Shown here piece after piece: positions 40,192-52,413 of a DNA stretch of 64,000 nucleotides. The translations under genes and the position numbers were made by a program. The notes beneath the pieces were generated by a model. That model was not told the origin of the DNA. It did not search any database and saw only the letters and a list, made by a program, of their open reading frames with translations. Numbering within the stretch: the stretch's first letter is position 1; every line of letters begins with the position of its first letter. The DNA is from Hymenobacter sediminicola (GTDB lineage: Bacteria > Bacteroidota > Bacteroidia > Cytophagales > Hymenobacteraceae): contig NZ_CP060202.1 in assembly GCF_014250515.1 (NCBI RefSeq), forward strand, positions 2,663,001 to 2,727,000, in the 5' to 3' direction.

Positions 40192-40917
40192 ATGAGCAAG
40201 ACACACATTCTGATGTACCTGCTGTTGAGTTGGGCCACCGTGCTCAGCTCGTCTTGTAAAAAGGAGGAAACAGTGGATGGCCTGCGCATGATTGATGGCA
40301 TACCTTATTACCACTTCACTGACAGCGACAAACCATGGCTATCCGCGCAGGAAGGCGAAGTCTGGAGATTTGAGAACCAGCAAGGCGTACAGCGAGGGTA
40401 TCGAGTCAACAAAGTCTATCAACAAAATAAAGCTGATAAAAGAGAATACGGCCCTCCTGGAATACCTAGTGGTACACCTAAACTTTTGAGCTACCACGAC
40501 CGAGTAACTGTTTGGTTGAGTGCCACTGATAGCATGCGCGGAACACAGGAAATACAATTTCATCGTGACGCTGCGATGCTTTCAAATTCGATATCCGGGG
40601 GATACGACAAGAATCGAAGCCAGTTTTACGTGGAAGGAATGTGGTACGGGTTTGTTGGCAATACGAATTTGAACAGCGACTATTTCAATTGTTGGGGTTT
40701 GAAGTTCCCACGCGGTGAGAACTTGAATGGTCCATTTATGCAGATCACAGTCCGGGGCCGGCAGTACAACGATGTCATTGCATTCATTGGCACAGATAGA
40801 GGACCCTCTTGCCCATCGGCACCTTCCTCTTTCATGCAGGAACTGTACTACGACCGCCGCGCGGGAATGGTGAAGATGGTCAGCAAAGCGGGCGAAGTGT
40901 GGGAAAGAGTGCCATAG
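40192..40917 (+). CDS. Uncharacterised lipoprotein, AT-rich
   Basis: 241 residues. The signal peptide ends at Cys22 (VLSSSCKK), a plausible lipidation site. The mature part is rich in Tyr, Ser and Asn and has no recognised domain (VDGLRMIDGIPYYHFTDSDKPWL). The gene is more AT-rich and lacks the strong third-position GC bias of its neighbours; a 200-base AT-rich spacer precedes it, which may indicate recent transfer. It is convergent with the permease; an 11-bp hairpin overlaps its stop codon. Confidence 0.7.
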   Translation: MSKTHILMYLLLSWATVLSSSCKKEETVDGLRMIDGIPYYHFTDSDKPWLSAQEGEVWRFENQQGVQRGYRVNKVYQQNKADKREYGPPGIPSGTPKLLSYHDRVTVWLSATDSMRGTQEIQFHRDAAMLSNSISGGYDKNRSQFYVEGMWYGFVGNTNLNSDYFNCWGLKFPRGENLNGPFMQITVRGRQYNDVIAFIGTDRGPSCPSAPSSFMQELYYDRRAGMVKMVSKAGEVWERVP

Positions 40918-40933
40918 CGGAACACTCTTTCCC
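40901..40933. terminator. Hairpin overlapping the stop codon of the lipoprotein gene
   Basis: GGGAAAGAGTG at 40901-40911 pairs with CACTCTTTCCC at 40923-40933; the stop TAG lies in the loop. No T tract follows, so its role as a terminator is unsure. Confidence 0.4.
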
Positions 40934-40942
40934 GCTCTTCGC

Positions 40943-42394
40943 CTACCGGCTCGCGTCTTCGGCATTCCCCAGCTTGCTGTGCTTGCGGCCGTACCCGAAA
41001 TAGATGCCTAGGCCGATAGCCAGCCACACGGCCAGCCGCAGCCACGTTTCCCACGGCAACGACACCATCATCAGCACGCAGGTCAGGATGCCGAGAATGG
41101 GCACCAGCGGCACGAACGGCGTGCGGAAGCCGCGCGGCGCGTTAGGCTCTTTCTTGCGCATAATCAGGATGCCCACGCACACCATTACAAAGGCCAGCAG
41201 CGTGCCGATGCTCGTCATCTCGCCCACTACCGAAATGGGCACGAAGCCGGCAAACAGCGCAATAAACAGCCCCAGCAAAAGATTCGACTGCAATGGCGTG
41301 CGGAACCGCTCGTGAATGCGGGCGAAAACCGGCGGCAGCAGGCCGTCCTTCGCCATGGAGAAAAATACGCGGCTCTGCCCCAGCAAATCCACCAGAATCA
41401 CGGACGTGTAGCCGATGATAATGGCCAGAATCACGGCCGACGACAGCCAGGCATACGGCGTTTTTTCGATGGCAATGGCCACTGGCGCCGCACTGTCCTT
41501 GAACTCGGTGTAGTTAGCTAGGCCGGTCATCACGTGGCCGAAAAGCACAAACAGCACCGTACACACCAGCAGCGAGCCAATGATGCCGATGGGCATATTG
41601 CGCTGTGGATTCTTGGTCTCCTGCGCCATAGTAGCCACAATATCGAAGCCGATGAACACGAAGAATACTACGCCGGCCCCGCGCAGAATGCCGCTCCAGC
41701 CAAACTCGCCGAATACACCCGTATTCTGCGGAATGTATGGCTGGTAGTTAGCCGGATCAATGTATTGCCACCCCAGCCCGATAAACACCAGCACCACGGC
41801 CACTTTCAGCGTGACTACCAGCGCATTGAACCACGCTGAGCCTTGCGTGCCACGAATAATAATCATGGTAATGGCCAGCACAATGAGCATGGCCGGTACG
41901 TTCACAAAGCCGTGTACGATGCTTCCATCGGCGAGCTTGGCCGTTTCGAAAGGGGAAAGCACGAGCTGCGGTGGCAGGTTGATACCGTATTTGCTCAAGA
42001 ATTTGAGCAGGTACTGCGACCAACTGATGGCTACCGTGGCAGCCCCCACCGAGTATTCCAGCACCAAGTCCCAACCGATAATCCAGGCAAACAGCTCACC
42101 CATAGTGGCGTAGGCGTAGGTGTAGGCTGAGCCGGACACAGGTACCATGGAGGCAAATTCGGCGTAGCACAGCGCTGAAAACGCACAACCCACCGCCGCC
42201 ACAATGAAGGAAAGCGTAACGGCCGGCCCGGCATTGTTGGCGGCCGCAATACCGGTGAGGGAGAACAGGCCCGCCCCGATGATAACACCAATGCCGATGG
42301 TGATGAGATTGAAGCCGTTCAGGCTTCGTTTGAGAGTGTTAGCGCCCGTTTCAGCCGCTTCCTGCCGCAGCAGTTCCAATGATTTTTTAAGCAT
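40943..42394 (-). CDS. APC-superfamily amino acid permease, under a SAM riboswitch
   Basis: 483 residues from ATG 42394. Twelve or so transmembrane helices are present, starting ITIGIGVIIGAGLFSLTGI, the conserved helix 1 substrate-binding region of cationic amino acid transporter-like APC proteins (YfnA/CAT type). The AGVVFFVFIGFDIVATMAQE segment is the helix 6 signature. The proton-coupled uptake mechanism follows from the family. A SAM-I riboswitch and strong promoter lie upstream on the same strand, so the natural substrate may be methionine or a related sulfur amino acid; this is inference. CAT-type transporters otherwise import cationic or broad-range amino acids. Confidence 0.9.
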   Translation of the reverse strand: MLKKSLELLRQEAAETGANTLKRSLNGFNLITIGIGVIIGAGLFSLTGIAAANNAGPAVTLSFIVAAVGCAFSALCYAEFASMVPVSGSAYTYAYATMGELFAWIIGWDLVLEYSVGAATVAISWSQYLLKFLSKYGINLPPQLVLSPFETAKLADGSIVHGFVNVPAMLIVLAITMIIIRGTQGSAWFNALVVTLKVAVVLVFIGLGWQYIDPANYQPYIPQNTGVFGEFGWSGILRGAGVVFFVFIGFDIVATMAQETKNPQRNMPIGIIGSLLVCTVLFVLFGHVMTGLANYTEFKDSAAPVAIAIEKTPYAWLSSAVILAIIIGYTSVILVDLLGQSRVFFSMAKDGLLPPVFARIHERFRTPLQSNLLLGLFIALFAGFVPISVVGEMTSIGTLLAFVMVCVGILIMRKKEPNAPRGFRTPFVPLVPILGILTCVLMMVSLPWETWLRLAVWLAIGLGIYFGYGRKHSKLGNAEDASR

Positions 42395-42724
42395 ACAATA
42401 GGGCAGCACGAAGCGCAGCTTCGCGGATCAGTGAACAGGCCGGCGCCATCTGCCACGGGCAGAAGCGCAGAGCCGCATGCCAGCTAGGCAAGCGGGCCGG
42501 GCAGCCAGAAAATACAGGGGAAGAAAACGCAGGCAGGCATCAGCCTAGCCCATTACCAACCGACAAGGGATAGACCCGATCAGCAATTCCAGGTGCACTC
42601 AGCAGCAACAACAGCCTGTGCTACAACAGCCCCGGGCCTCCATAGGTAGGCGCCGGAAAGCAGCAGAAACAACGAAACGGGCAGTAAGGCGAGGCAGGAA
42701 ATCCACGGCAACTTGTTTTTATAT
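42395..42724 (-). other. Long leader between the SAM riboswitch and the permease start
   Basis: About 330 nt of untranslated leader with no gene seen. Near the start codon, at about 42408-42424, GAAGCGCAGCTTC-type complementarity could hide the ribosome-binding region. No T-tract terminator follows the aptamer, so control of translation is more likely than transcription termination, but this is inference. Confidence 0.45.
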
Positions 42725-42806
42725 GGTCAGGAATTGGCACCGTTCCGGCAGTATCCGGGTGGTTGCCGACGCTTCATAGAGCCTGTCTCTCAGCGCCTCT
42801 GTATAA
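42725..42806 (-). promoter_or_regulatory. SAM-I (S-box) riboswitch
   Basis: On the minus strand the sequence reads AGAGG, GAGAGACAGGC, TGAAGCG, CGGCAACC, then GGTGCCAATTCCTGACC, in the order and spacing of the S-box aptamer core. The conserved GAGGGA-like P2 junction, TGAAG P1/P2 loop, GGCAACC P3 side and GGTGCCAATTCC are all visible. It begins about 28 nt after the predicted transcription start. S-box RNAs bind S-adenosylmethionine and repress sulfur amino acid genes. Confidence 0.9.
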
Positions 42807-42839
42807 AAACAATCCTTTGTCGGTAAAGAATTGATGCGG

Positions 42840-42872
42840 CAAAGGTACGTTCGGCCGACGTGCATTTACAAA
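42840..42872 (-). promoter_or_regulatory. Promoter of the riboswitch-permease transcript
   Basis: Reading the minus strand, TTTG (complement of 42869-42872), a 21-base spacer and TACCTTTG (complement of 42840-42847) match the Bacteroidota TTTG/TAnnTTTG consensus. The predicted start near 42834 precedes the aptamer. Confidence 0.75.
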
Positions 42873-42989
42873 CCGGCGTGTGGTACTTCCATAGCCACCT
42901 TGCGAAGAGCCGACCACACATTGCAGGTAAAGTTTAACCCCACTATTGACTTTTTTTTATTTCACCCGAACTATTCTATTTGAAAAAAC

Positions 42990-43005
42990 TGGCATCTGAG
43001 TTGCG
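42990..43005 (+). promoter_or_regulatory. Possible sigma-54 promoter of the Spy-like gene
   Basis: TGGCATCTGAGTTGCG shows GG and GC dinucleotides ten bases apart, as in the -24/-12 sigma-54 consensus TGGCAC-N5-TTGCA. Start would be near 43016, leaving a 70-nt leader before ATG 43089. The -24 box differs from consensus in one base and the -12 box at its last base. Confidence 0.4.
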
Positions 43006-43088
43006 TATAGGCATTCCACAAGCACAAAAACTGCCCTCAAAGCGCAAGTGCCTCTTTTCTCAAATTCAACAATTCTAATACCTCTGTC

Positions 43089-43511
43089 ATGAAAAATCCT
43101 CTCGTTCTGCTCGCTGTTTTTGCCTTTTCGGTTAGTGTAGCTTCAGCCCAGACAGCTACCACCAAACCCGACCGCAAGGCCAGAATGGAGCAGGCCGGCA
43201 AAACGCCAAAAACACCCGAACAGCGCGCCGACCACGCCGCGCAACGCCTCGCAAAGGAGTTGGGTTTATCCGCCGCTCAGACGGCACAAGTGCGTGAGCT
43301 GCACATTGTCCGGTACAAGGAAATGGAGGCCAAGCGCGCCCAGCTTGCCACCACCGACAAAACCCAGCGCCATCAGGCAATGAAGGCTGGCAAGGAGCGG
43401 TACGAAGCGCAGCTCAAACAAATCCTGAGTGCCGAGCAGTACACCAAATACGCCCAGCTGCGCGCTGAAAAAGCCGAAAAGCACAAAGGCCACCGCAAAG
43501 CCAAAGGTTAG
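43089..43511 (+). CDS. Spy/CpxP-like periplasmic protein (LTXXQ-type)
   Basis: 140 residues. The cleavable signal peptide ends in SVASA-Q (about residue 21). The mature protein is almost wholly helical and rich in Lys, Arg, Ala and Gln. LGLSAAQTAQVRELHIVRYKEM matches the LTxxQ/Spy helix, and ILSAEQYTKYAQLRAEK supplies the second characteristic helix. Spy-like proteins are periplasmic chaperones or metal-binding stress factors; the role here is inferred. A possible sigma-54 promoter precedes it and a strong terminator follows. Confidence 0.8.
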   Translation: MKNPLVLLAVFAFSVSVASAQTATTKPDRKARMEQAGKTPKTPEQRADHAAQRLAKELGLSAAQTAQVRELHIVRYKEMEAKRAQLATTDKTQRHQAMKAGKERYEAQLKQILSAEQYTKYAQLRAEKAEKHKGHRKAKG

Positions 43512-43529
43512 TTTTCGCAGTGAATAAGC

Positions 43530-43563
43530 AAAGAGCCCCGCCAGCATTGGCGGGGCTCTTTTG
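43530..43563 (+). terminator. Rho-independent terminator after the Spy-like gene
   Basis: AAAGAGCCCCGCCA at 43530-43543 pairs perfectly with TGGCGGGGCTCTTT at 43548-43561 around a 4-base loop, followed by TT. Confidence 0.9.
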
Positions 43564-43588
43564 TGCTTTGGTATTTTGAAAATACCGA

Positions 43589-43680
43589 GTCATCTTGAGC
43601 GGAGCGAAGGACCTTGTTATGCCCGACGCCGTTGATACTTGTGGGGGCGTGATAAGGTCCTTCGCTCCGCTCAGGATGAC
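43589..43680. repeat. Dispersed palindromic element (HPERSEGP-type, Hymenobacter-like)
   Basis: GTCATCTTGAGCGGAGCGAA at 43589-43608, continuing through GGACCTT, is repeated in inverted form at 43652-43680, with one change, around a 31-base non-repeated core. The sequence TCATCCTGAGCGGAGCGAAGG is a well-known dispersed element in Hymenobacter and other genomes. Its right arm overlaps the last codons and stop of the EcsC gene. Confidence 0.85.
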
Positions 43681-44417
43681 AACTCCTTTTTCGGTTCTTG
43701 GCCCTCAAACCAGCGCATGCGGTAGCAGTTGATAGCGGTTTCGCCAAGCTGCTCCAGAAGGCGGTAGTTAGCCACTGCTCCTACTGCCGCCCCAATAACG
43801 GGTACCAGCTGGGCCATTTTAGCGAGGTCGATGTAGTCGCGGTACTCCTGCTGGAAGGTGCGCCAATCGAAGTCGTGCACGTCGGGCGGAAGCGTGTGGC
43901 GGTAGGTTTCCCAGGTGGCAAGGCGCTGGTAGGTTTCATTGCGGGTGTGCTGGCTGCTGAAGGCCAGCTGGAAAATGTGCAACAGATAAACCCGCTCGGA
44001 ATAGTCGCGCGCATCGTAGCCGTAGAGGGCGGCCACATCGAAAAGCAGCTTGAGCTTGATGCTGAGCAGCAGCGGAAAATCGGCGAGGCCGAGCAGGAAG
44101 CCACCGGCGCCCGTCACGGCTCCTTCGGCGGCGGCTGTATTGCGGTAGGCCCGGATGCGGCGTTGCACGGCCTCTTCGCGCTCCGCCAGCGTGCCCGTAA
44201 GAAGTGGCTTCTGCGTGACATACTCGGAGCCAAACAACACGCCGCGCACCATCTGCTTGATAGCCGAGGTAATAGCCGCGTGCACCTTTTCCGGTAGCAA
44301 CGCATTCAACCGCGCCTGCACACGCCGCGCCACCCGGTTCAGCAGCGAAGGAGGCTGCTGCATCCGGCGCTGCCAAGCATACAGTTCGTCACGGGCAGGT
44401 TGGTCGGCGGGAGTCAT
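43671..44417 (-). CDS. EcsC-family protein
   Basis: 248 residues from ATG 44417 (MTPADQPARDELYAWQ); the upstream extension of 22 residues is not conserved in character. The EcsC domain spans most of the protein, with the glycine-rich hydrophobic hairpin GAVTGAGGFLLGLADFPLLLSIKLKLLFDVAALYGYD and the C-terminal LVPVIGAAVGAVANYRLLEQLGETAINCYRMR. The molecular role of EcsC proteins is unclear; in Bacillus the gene is linked to an ABC transporter. The last three codons, including the TGA stop, lie inside the dispersed palindrome, so the original C-terminus may have been replaced. Confidence 0.85.
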   Translation of the reverse strand: MTPADQPARDELYAWQRRMQQPPSLLNRVARRVQARLNALLPEKVHAAITSAIKQMVRGVLFGSEYVTQKPLLTGTLAEREEAVQRRIRAYRNTAAAEGAVTGAGGFLLGLADFPLLLSIKLKLLFDVAALYGYDARDYSERVYLLHIFQLAFSSQHTRNETYQRLATWETYRHTLPPDVHDFDWRTFQQEYRDYIDLAKMAQLVPVIGAAVGAVANYRLLEQLGETAINCYRMRWFEGQEPKKELSS

Positions 44418-52405: not shown

Positions 52406-52413
52406 CAAAGGTA
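52406..52413 (-). promoter_or_regulatory. -7 promoter element of the SRP RNA gene
   Basis: TACCTTTG on the minus strand ends six bases before the predicted RNA 5' end. It is a useful internal calibration of the start-site distance in this genome. Confidence 0.65.

Follow-up and report, generated by a model that had tools for sequence, protein, structure and literature searches.

A SAM-I riboswitch beside a poly-cysteine leader peptide: a candidate two-input leader for sulfur uptake and assimilation genes in Cytophagales

Introduction

SAM-I riboswitches (Rfam family RF00162) are recognised as full-length aptamers that score above the family's gathering score and lie upstream of sulfur amino acid genes, and the locus described here resembles them in these respects. 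It differs from them in what stands at a fixed short distance from the P1 helix: neither a terminator nor the main gene's own start, but a codon at which a leader peptide begins.

Poly-cysteine leader peptides of Actinobacteria are reportedly the subject of Canestrari et al. (2020), as papers citing that work have it. In mycobacterial poly-cysteine uORFs, as described in the accessible text, the stalled ribosome uncovers the main start. The actinobacterial leaders of Seliverstov et al. 2005 (PMC1262725) share with our locus a short ORF, a run of cysteine codons near its stop, sulfur genes downstream and the lack of a conserved terminator, and Rho was suggested, weakly, for them too; unlike in our locus, where a SAM-I aptamer precedes the ORF by a few bases and the host belongs to Bacteroidota, no riboswitch is mentioned in the part of that source available. 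Ribosome-mediated attenuation on tandem cysteine codons has also been proposed for the uORFC-8-2 motif before cysS of Rhodobacterales (PMC8632094), which differs in having an intrinsic terminator with two stems, a dominance of UGC and, in the accessible text, no mention of a riboswitch.

Three further systems join a riboswitch to a second element. At the Mycobacterium tuberculosis ppe2 locus (PMC11260477) the riboswitch first targets a uORF that the main gene needs, as we propose here, whereas the aptamer binds B12, termination-reinitiation is the process named and the text available describes no amino acid sensor. The SAM-I leader of Xanthomonas campestris (PMC7270179) likewise has a second, tRNA-related input, but its expression platform binds uncharged initiator Met-tRNA directly, and a leader peptide is not mentioned in the accessible part of the paper. 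In the SAM-II leader of Sinorhizobium meliloti metA (PMC9373788), as here, the aptamer adjoins a start codon upstream of the one in use; there, however, AUG1 is in frame with metA and unused in its natural context (AUG2 being the other start), and the word cysteine is absent from the main text. Within Bacteroidota, some long 5′ UTRs of Bacteroides thetaiotaomicron hold short ORFs reminiscent of leader peptides, according to the text available of PMC7366714.

SAM-I riboswitches, cysteine leader peptides, riboswitch-controlled uORFs and SAM-I combined with a tRNA input are each known singly. None of the titles and abstract beginnings among the full-text matches listed (for example the best 25 of 640) reported the pairing of a SAM riboswitch with a cysteine leader peptide, in a survey that took in few subscription papers and no bioRxiv preprints.

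Results

A SAM-I aptamer and its promoter

The window, by which we mean the whole stretch of 64,000 nucleotides that was analysed (Hymenobacter sediminicola, contig NZ_CP060202.1, positions 2,663,001 to 2,727,000), contains a leader composed of the following parts, in the order in which they would be transcribed.

42840–42872, minus strand: Bacteroidota-type promoter, TTTG (42872–42869), a 21 nt spacer and TACCTTTG (42847–42840); motif kept in orthologous leaders.
42810–42834, minus strand: hairpin CAATTCTTT...AAAGGATTG between promoter and aptamer, at the presumptive 5′ end of the RNA; paired in the leader fold.
42716–42809, minus strand: SAM-I (S-box) riboswitch aptamer, P1 TTTTTATA / TATAAAAA (class A); alignment of aptamers, P1 paired in the fold of 42809–42704.
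42599–42706, minus strand: leader peptide uORF of 35 codons (VDFLPRLTARFVVSAAFRRLPMEARGCCSTGCCCC) followed by TGA, its GTG start lying 9 nt past P1.
42602–42628, minus strand: cysteine codons 27–28 (42628–42623) and 32–35 (42613–42602) of the uORF, adjoining its stop; frame conservation and TGT bias.
42395–42598, minus strand: untranslated stretch of 204 nt from the uORF stop to the permease start, presumed site of attenuation; no intrinsic terminator.
40943–42394, minus strand: APC-superfamily amino acid permease (CAT/BcaP-like), 483 aa; PF13520, PF00324, PF13906, NCBIfam BcaP and PDB matches.

A first, sequence-only reading of this DNA had claimed an S-box aptamer on the minus strand with all core segments, preceded by a promoter, and had named an RF00162 covariance-model search as a check. 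That search gave a score above the threshold, not below it: the model matched 42809–42716 on the minus strand over its positions 1–108 at 71.9 bits (gathering score 44.4, E 7.5e-15), that is, as a full-length aptamer. The core segments, including those named in the earlier reading, and the helix architecture are present in the alignment, in which four positions are marked as non-standard pairs relative to the consensus; the last hairpin is short, with three letters against 19 model positions. By its sequence the element is a genuine SAM-I aptamer, and it is predicted to bind SAM.

The claimed promoter was also borne out by comparison. Of the 68 orthologous permease leaders, 66 have TAnnTTTG in the 80 nt that precede the aptamer (4/568 control windows), at a distance of 28–35 nt, and of 28–32 nt in 64 of them; an upstream TTG accompanies it at a spacing of 16–23 nt in 46/68. 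Transcription would start near 42834. A sigma-70 promoter scan returned no promoter, an empty result that is expected because the promoter is of the Bacteroidota type. Sequence resembling the hairpin at 42810–42834 was seen in eight of the 12 orthologous leaders displayed. Four SAM-I copies are present in the H. sediminicola genome (one contig of 4.51 Mb), and downstream of them, as judged by sequence motif, are the permease, MetY, MetH and a homoserine dehydrogenase-like gene.

The permease and the aptamer upstream of its orthologues

The nearest gene downstream of the aptamer is indeed an APC permease, as had been stated, although the distance to its ATG (42394) is 321 nt and not 330. The protein matches PF13520 at 186.8 bits, PF00324 at 134.7 and PF13906 at 65.6, its C-terminus is of the CAT type, and its nearest solved structures in the PDB are 5oqt and 6f34; a permease of H. 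psychrotolerans matches it at 94% identity. The best NCBIfam model was BcaP (NF053761) with 564.6 bits, and as this lies under the curated cut-off of 690 we call the protein BcaP-like, not BcaP. According to the accessible text of PMC7058034, BcaP of Lactococcus lactis transports branched-chain amino acids and also methionine, and cysteine less so. Transport of methionine and cysteine by a BcaP-type protein would fit a leader that reads SAM and cysteine, and we infer that the substrate is a sulfur amino acid (methionine and/or cysteine/cystine) or a related sulfur compound. The methionine-type substrate proposed in the sequence-only reading was in this sense reasonable and too narrow, because the leader carries a cysteine sensor and because the permease sometimes stands behind a sulfur monooxygenase gene.

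Orthologues were defined as 90 of 102 database rows at at least 81% identity (30 upstream stretches obtained directly and 60 fetched), and 15 paralogues were taken from the rows at 56–59% identity. Aptamers were located with R1, a covariance model built from 25 aptamers, which replaced a regular expression for the core (61/105) that missed real copies. With R1, an aptamer was found directly upstream of the permease in 68 of the 90 orthologues. By the same search, none of the 15 paralogues had an aptamer within about 1.1 kb upstream, and none was found in the 1.5 kb upstream of nine further permease relatives (L291–L299) from Pedobacter, Larkinella, Chitinophaga, Spirosoma, Mucilaginibacter and Siphonobacter.

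Loss of the aptamer was considered for the remaining 22 orthologues and rejected for most of them: 20 were re-examined (L120 and L121 lay outside this set), and 19 of them have an aptamer farther upstream on the strand of the permease, at 2.5–2.9 kb in 18 loci and at 4.0 kb in L385; in L387 no aptamer was present in the extended upstream DNA. In all of these 19 operon-type loci (L368–L386) the aptamer is followed by a cysteine-tailed ORF at +9 or +10. Between leader and permease lie, as judged by N-termini, an ATP-grasp gene (18/19) and a luciferase-like monooxygenase gene (18/19), with an additional dehydrogenase-like gene in L385. The protein families of the intervening genes were checked in L379 and L385, where the ATP-grasp proteins gave weak RimK-like matches. 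For the monooxygenase of L379, the best of 17 NCBIfam models was SfnG (TIGR04021) with 238.6 bits against a cut-off of 382.95, so that we call it SfnG/SsuD-like only; its relatives in the PDB are named luciferase-like, alkanesulfonate and dimethylsulfone monooxygenases. The H. sediminicola genome itself gave no match for this monooxygenase, and for the ATP-grasp protein the match was weak (21.6 bits). By gene content, the permease in these relatives sits with predicted sulfur scavenging genes, and leader, ATP-grasp gene, monooxygenase gene and permease gene would form one transcript. Similar ATP-grasp genes stand behind SAM-I leaders elsewhere (L022, L026, L033, L270–L272), and those tested match family models weakly.

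With the aptamer directly upstream in 68/90 orthologues, 2.5–4 kb upstream in 19 of 20 others and absent from about 1.1 kb upstream of the 15 paralogues, SAM-I control of the permease, as first claimed, is well supported by conservation.

A poly-cysteine leader peptide behind the aptamer

The sequence-only reading had remarked on a long leader without a terminator. The absence of a convincing terminator stands; what was missed is the cysteine uORF at 42706–42599, which begins with GTG at 42706, has its stop codon at 42601–42599 and encodes a peptide terminating in CCSTGCCCC. Counting an ORF as cysteine-tailed when at least three of its last ten residues are cysteine, and reading from the first ATG or GTG at +2 to +14 after P1, we found such an ORF in 61 of the 68 permease leaders against 0.99 expected from dinucleotide shuffles, while other start codons in the same leaders gave 5/249. 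The start is an ATG or GTG at +7 to +12 in 55/68, with a subgroup at +2/+3, and of the 47 occurrences of TGY-TGY-TGY-stop, 46 are in frame with that start. Seven leaders fall outside the count of 61: L115 lacks an ORF of this kind, L081 shows its cysteine run only in another frame (TTG start), and L088, L110, L111, L113 and L122 have uORFs with two clustered cysteines.

Analyses running from the uORF to the permease (codon positions relative to the stop, composition, codon differences and pairing) cover 60 of the 68 leaders, the eight without a match to the permease-start motif (L043, L044, L046, L047, L049, L050, L095, L116) being left out. TGT outnumbers TGC by 221 to 116 among the cysteine codons of the permease-leader uORFs (221/337), whereas the ratio is 11:139 in 30 permease coding sequences and 6:24 in 11 genes of the window; the minor cysteine codon of the permease genes is thus the one preferred in the uORFs. 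Little conservation is seen in the peptide body, with 72, 60 and 86 differences at codon positions 1, 2 and 3 in 14 disjoint pairs, a weak excess at the third position. Start, frame and cysteine run being kept while the body is not, the profile is that of a leader peptide.

Many of the peptides have 3–7 clustered cysteines, as a functional cysteine-rich small protein, binding metal or active in redox chemistry and itself regulated by SAM, would have. Such a protein is hard to reconcile with a body and length that vary (23–39 codons in permease leaders, 23–51 in class A loci, see below), with cysteines at or near the stop codon and with the preference for the minor TGT codon, and we consider it quite improbable. 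As expected of a ribosome-mediated attenuator, the ORF is short, has its run of regulatory codons near the stop and a conserved start in frame with that run, and genes of the cysteine pathway lie downstream of such leaders (CysH, a NIR_SIR-domain reductase, MetY and the sulfur monooxygenase operon); the permease itself would presumably belong to the same pathway. That the leader consists of an aptamer followed by a cysteine uORF appears near certain from these comparisons.

Poly-cysteine uORFs free of an aptamer were sought in the H. sediminicola genome and discarded as candidates: of 22 matches to TGYTGYTGYTGYTRR (4 for the reversed control pattern), six have a true stop, and five of these, all but the window's own, were unconvincing by eye from their flanking sequence.

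Two classes of SAM-I leader in Bacteroidota

SAM-I aptamers were detected in 119 of 120 genomes of the family, 76 of 98 of the order and 167 of 198 of the phylum. The loci from these searches were taken best-scoring first, not by random draw, together with stretches fetched from lists, and the counts that follow describe this set. R1 placed 129 aptamers, the incomplete L167 and second matches in L011 and L182 being left out; the 25 loci that had supplied the model, originally found by RF00162, were among those searched and match by construction. They fall into two types by P1: class A (..TTATA../..TATAA..) with 77 loci and class B (..TTATC../..GATAA..) with 51, one locus being unclassified. 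An ATG or GTG at +7 to +12 is present in 66/77 class A loci vs 2/51 in class B, where 14 loci have one at +1 to +6. Cysteine-tailed ORFs number 50 of 77 in class A against 0.54 expected (52 in a second count), and 0/51 in class B.

The cysteine-tailed class A loci are concentrated in the family of H. sediminicola (31/33); seven other families of the order contribute 14/32, and one locus, L227 (1/5), comes from another order of the class. None was present among the 30 best-scoring loci of the phylum search. Downstream gene starts were assigned mechanically, a few of them wrongly (for example in L287), and the genes behind cysteine uORFs of class A include MetY, CysH (tested in L028, L273 and L280), a NIR_SIR-domain reductase (L261), Na+/H+-antiporter-family proteins (L034, L246), ATP-grasp proteins (tested in L022), a protein with a peptidase M14 domain (L277) and the permease, which such a leader precedes in another genus of the family as well (L268, L278, L281). 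Class B loci precede MetH, MetB/MGL, Hom and MetK where the gene was recognised by motif, and some class A loci without a cysteine tail stand before MetH or MetX-like genes.

When the seven loci that repeat the permease set are removed, 46 of 70 class A loci have the cysteine tail and 24 have none by our criterion. The 24 loci that keep the aptamer without the tail, like the RF00162 match itself, are what one would expect if an ordinary SAM-I riboswitch acted directly on the permease and the cysteine-tailed ORF were incidental. An incidental ORF would not account for the excess of cysteine-tailed ORFs in the permease leaders over expectation, the agreement in frame (46 to 1), the bias to TGT and the fixed start, and P1 lies 9 nt from the start of the uORF whereas the permease start is 321 nt away; we therefore regard direct action of this kind as very improbable. 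Several class A leaders of MetY (for example L174, L178, L184, L254) have an ATG at +7 to +10 and an ORF of 17–52 codons with no cysteine run, and because they keep the start without the run, the uORF start seems from these sequences to be older or more stable than the cysteine part.

Two plasmids of H. volaticus (NZ_CP095067.1 and NZ_CP095069.1; L366 and L367) carry a related promoter, a class A aptamer and a uORF with two cysteines before TonB-dependent receptor genes, and neither has an annotated feature over the uORF. This suggests outer-membrane uptake of a sulfur compound. A small helix (CCGGCAG...CTGCCG type) precedes the cysteine run within the uORF of 12 aligned MetY leaders (from L012–L036, with L267 and L274); its sequence changes look compensatory, and it could be a pause hairpin.

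The stretch between uORF and permease

Direct SAM-I control through an intrinsic terminator was rejected, as the leader contains no credible one: a scan of 40500–43800 found eight terminator-like sites against 4.8 expected, and in the leader only two overlapping stems of 5 bp. The untranslated stretch between uORF and permease measures 122–432 nt in the 60 leaders analysed. RNAalifold on the 12 MetY leaders gave no conserved terminator or sequestering structure, and past the aptamer only the small helix inside the uORF. The cysteine codons pair with downstream RNA slightly better than shuffles do (mean z −0.64 and −0.28). A rho gene is encoded in the genome.

The lack of an intrinsic terminator and of a conserved alternative structure, the weak complementarity to the cysteine codons, the long untranslated stretch and the rho gene together make Rho-dependent termination within that stretch our first choice for the attenuation step, at slightly less than an even chance. 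The region after the uORF contains C and G at 0.30 and 0.29, without an excess of C over G, and has more structure than its shuffled versions (mean z about −1.5); this composition and structure do not favour a classical Rho site.

RNA structure that hides the permease start is our second choice for the same step, and a tentative one. The corresponding version of the two-input mechanism, in which the output is purely translational and the stalled ribosome uncovers the permease start, is a sub-model of the reading that we prefer and overlaps it in likelihood; we rate it as possible, though short of probable. It agrees with the structured RNA after the uORF and with the cysteine genes of M. smegmatis, which are cited as attenuated at translation in the accessible text of PMC13236596. 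It accords less well with pairing between cysteine codons and the start region, which averages z −0.44 in permease leaders and +0.13 in the others, and with the hairpin at the permease ATG, which is also present where the aptamer is 2.5–4 kb away and of which none is evident before MetY.

At 42407–42425, some 12 nt ahead of the permease ATG, this hairpin varies in sequence and is present in most of the orthologues that were folded, whether or not the aptamer is adjacent; before the permease paralogues no hairpin of the type was evident by eye. Since it also precedes permease genes far from an aptamer, we rejected it as a part of the switch.

A model with two inputs in series

A-rich leaders serve translation initiation in Bacteroidota, and cysteine codons at a stop codon are a classic stall place that reports charged tRNA-Cys. 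The explanation that we favour, with somewhat more confidence than an even chance would give, is a composite sulfur-status leader in which SAM gates the start of the uORF and stalling at its cysteine codons relieves attenuation. With SAM bound, P1 would draw the A-rich sequence immediately before the uORF start into pairing and keep ribosomes away from it; with SAM scarce, P1 would open and the uORF would be translated. If charged tRNA-Cys were scarce as well, the ribosome would stall at the cysteine codons beside the stop codon and protect or remodel the RNA up to the main gene, so that the permease would be expressed and bring in methionine and/or cysteine or a related sulfur compound. If cysteine were plentiful, the ribosome would complete the uORF and depart, and expression would be attenuated. 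In the logic that we prefer, SAM would switch the permease off, expression would be partly off when SAM is low and cysteine ample, and it would be on when both are scarce.

The geometry of the leader is consistent with such gating. The 3′ strand of P1 (AUAUAAAAA) stops 9 nt short of the uORF start, which puts it within the footprint of an initiating ribosome, so that a P1 closed by SAM should lower initiation at the uORF. Predicted ligand-free folds point partly in another direction. When 45 nt after P1 were included, P1 formed in 10/68 permease leaders and the uORF start paired with the aptamer in 45/68; with 15 nt after P1 the figures were 28/68 and 43/68, and forcing P1 left the start region more open (0.88 vs 0.57 unpaired). 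GTTGCCG, before the GTG of the uORF, is complementary to the invariant aptamer core CGGCAAC (42700–42770 of the window), and in these models the two could form an anti-aptamer helix that hides the uORF start.

Because the start is hidden in most of these ligand-free folds, SAM might free it instead. The sign would then be opposite: without SAM the aptamer core would hide the uORF start, completion of the uORF would repress the permease and a stall at cysteine codons would relieve the repression. There is a parallel in M. tuberculosis, where translation of the metE uORF suppresses MetE (accessible text of PMC11260477), and the resulting OR gate, with the permease on if SAM or cysteine is low, is also sensible physiology. 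However, the exact motif AAGTTGCCGTG is found in only 30/68 leaders and several variants break the core pairing, and pairing of start and aptamer is rarer in the other class A loci (24/63), where P1 forms in 46/62 with 15 nt after it. A P1 at −9 to −17 should, moreover, itself hinder initiation at the uORF. We consider the opposite sign unlikely.

We think it more probable than not that a class of Cytophagales SAM-I riboswitches directly targets the start codon of a poly-cysteine leader peptide, that the resulting two-input leader, responsive to SAM and charged tRNA-Cys, governs a regulon of sulfur assimilation and uptake, and that the cysteine half has been gained or lost while the SAM-gated start stays. 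If this is true, a single leader would join a riboswitch and a ribosome-stalling attenuator in series, with access to the second sensor controlled by the first, and this arrangement would explain how some Bacteroidota SAM-I leaders work without terminators. It would also mark out a sulfur regulon open to testing in an order that has received little study, hint at substrates for transporters of unknown specificity and provide dozens of candidate small ORFs with predictable function.

Other elements in the window

An inverted repeat, TCATCCTGAGCGGAGCGAAGGACC / GGTCCTTCGCTCCGCTCAAGATGA, lies between genes at 43588–43680 and resembles sequence found before some permease orthologues; it is possibly a dispersed intergenic repeat. 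A Bacteroidales small SRP RNA (RF04183) was matched at 52409–52307 on the minus strand with 71.4 bits against a threshold of 55.2.
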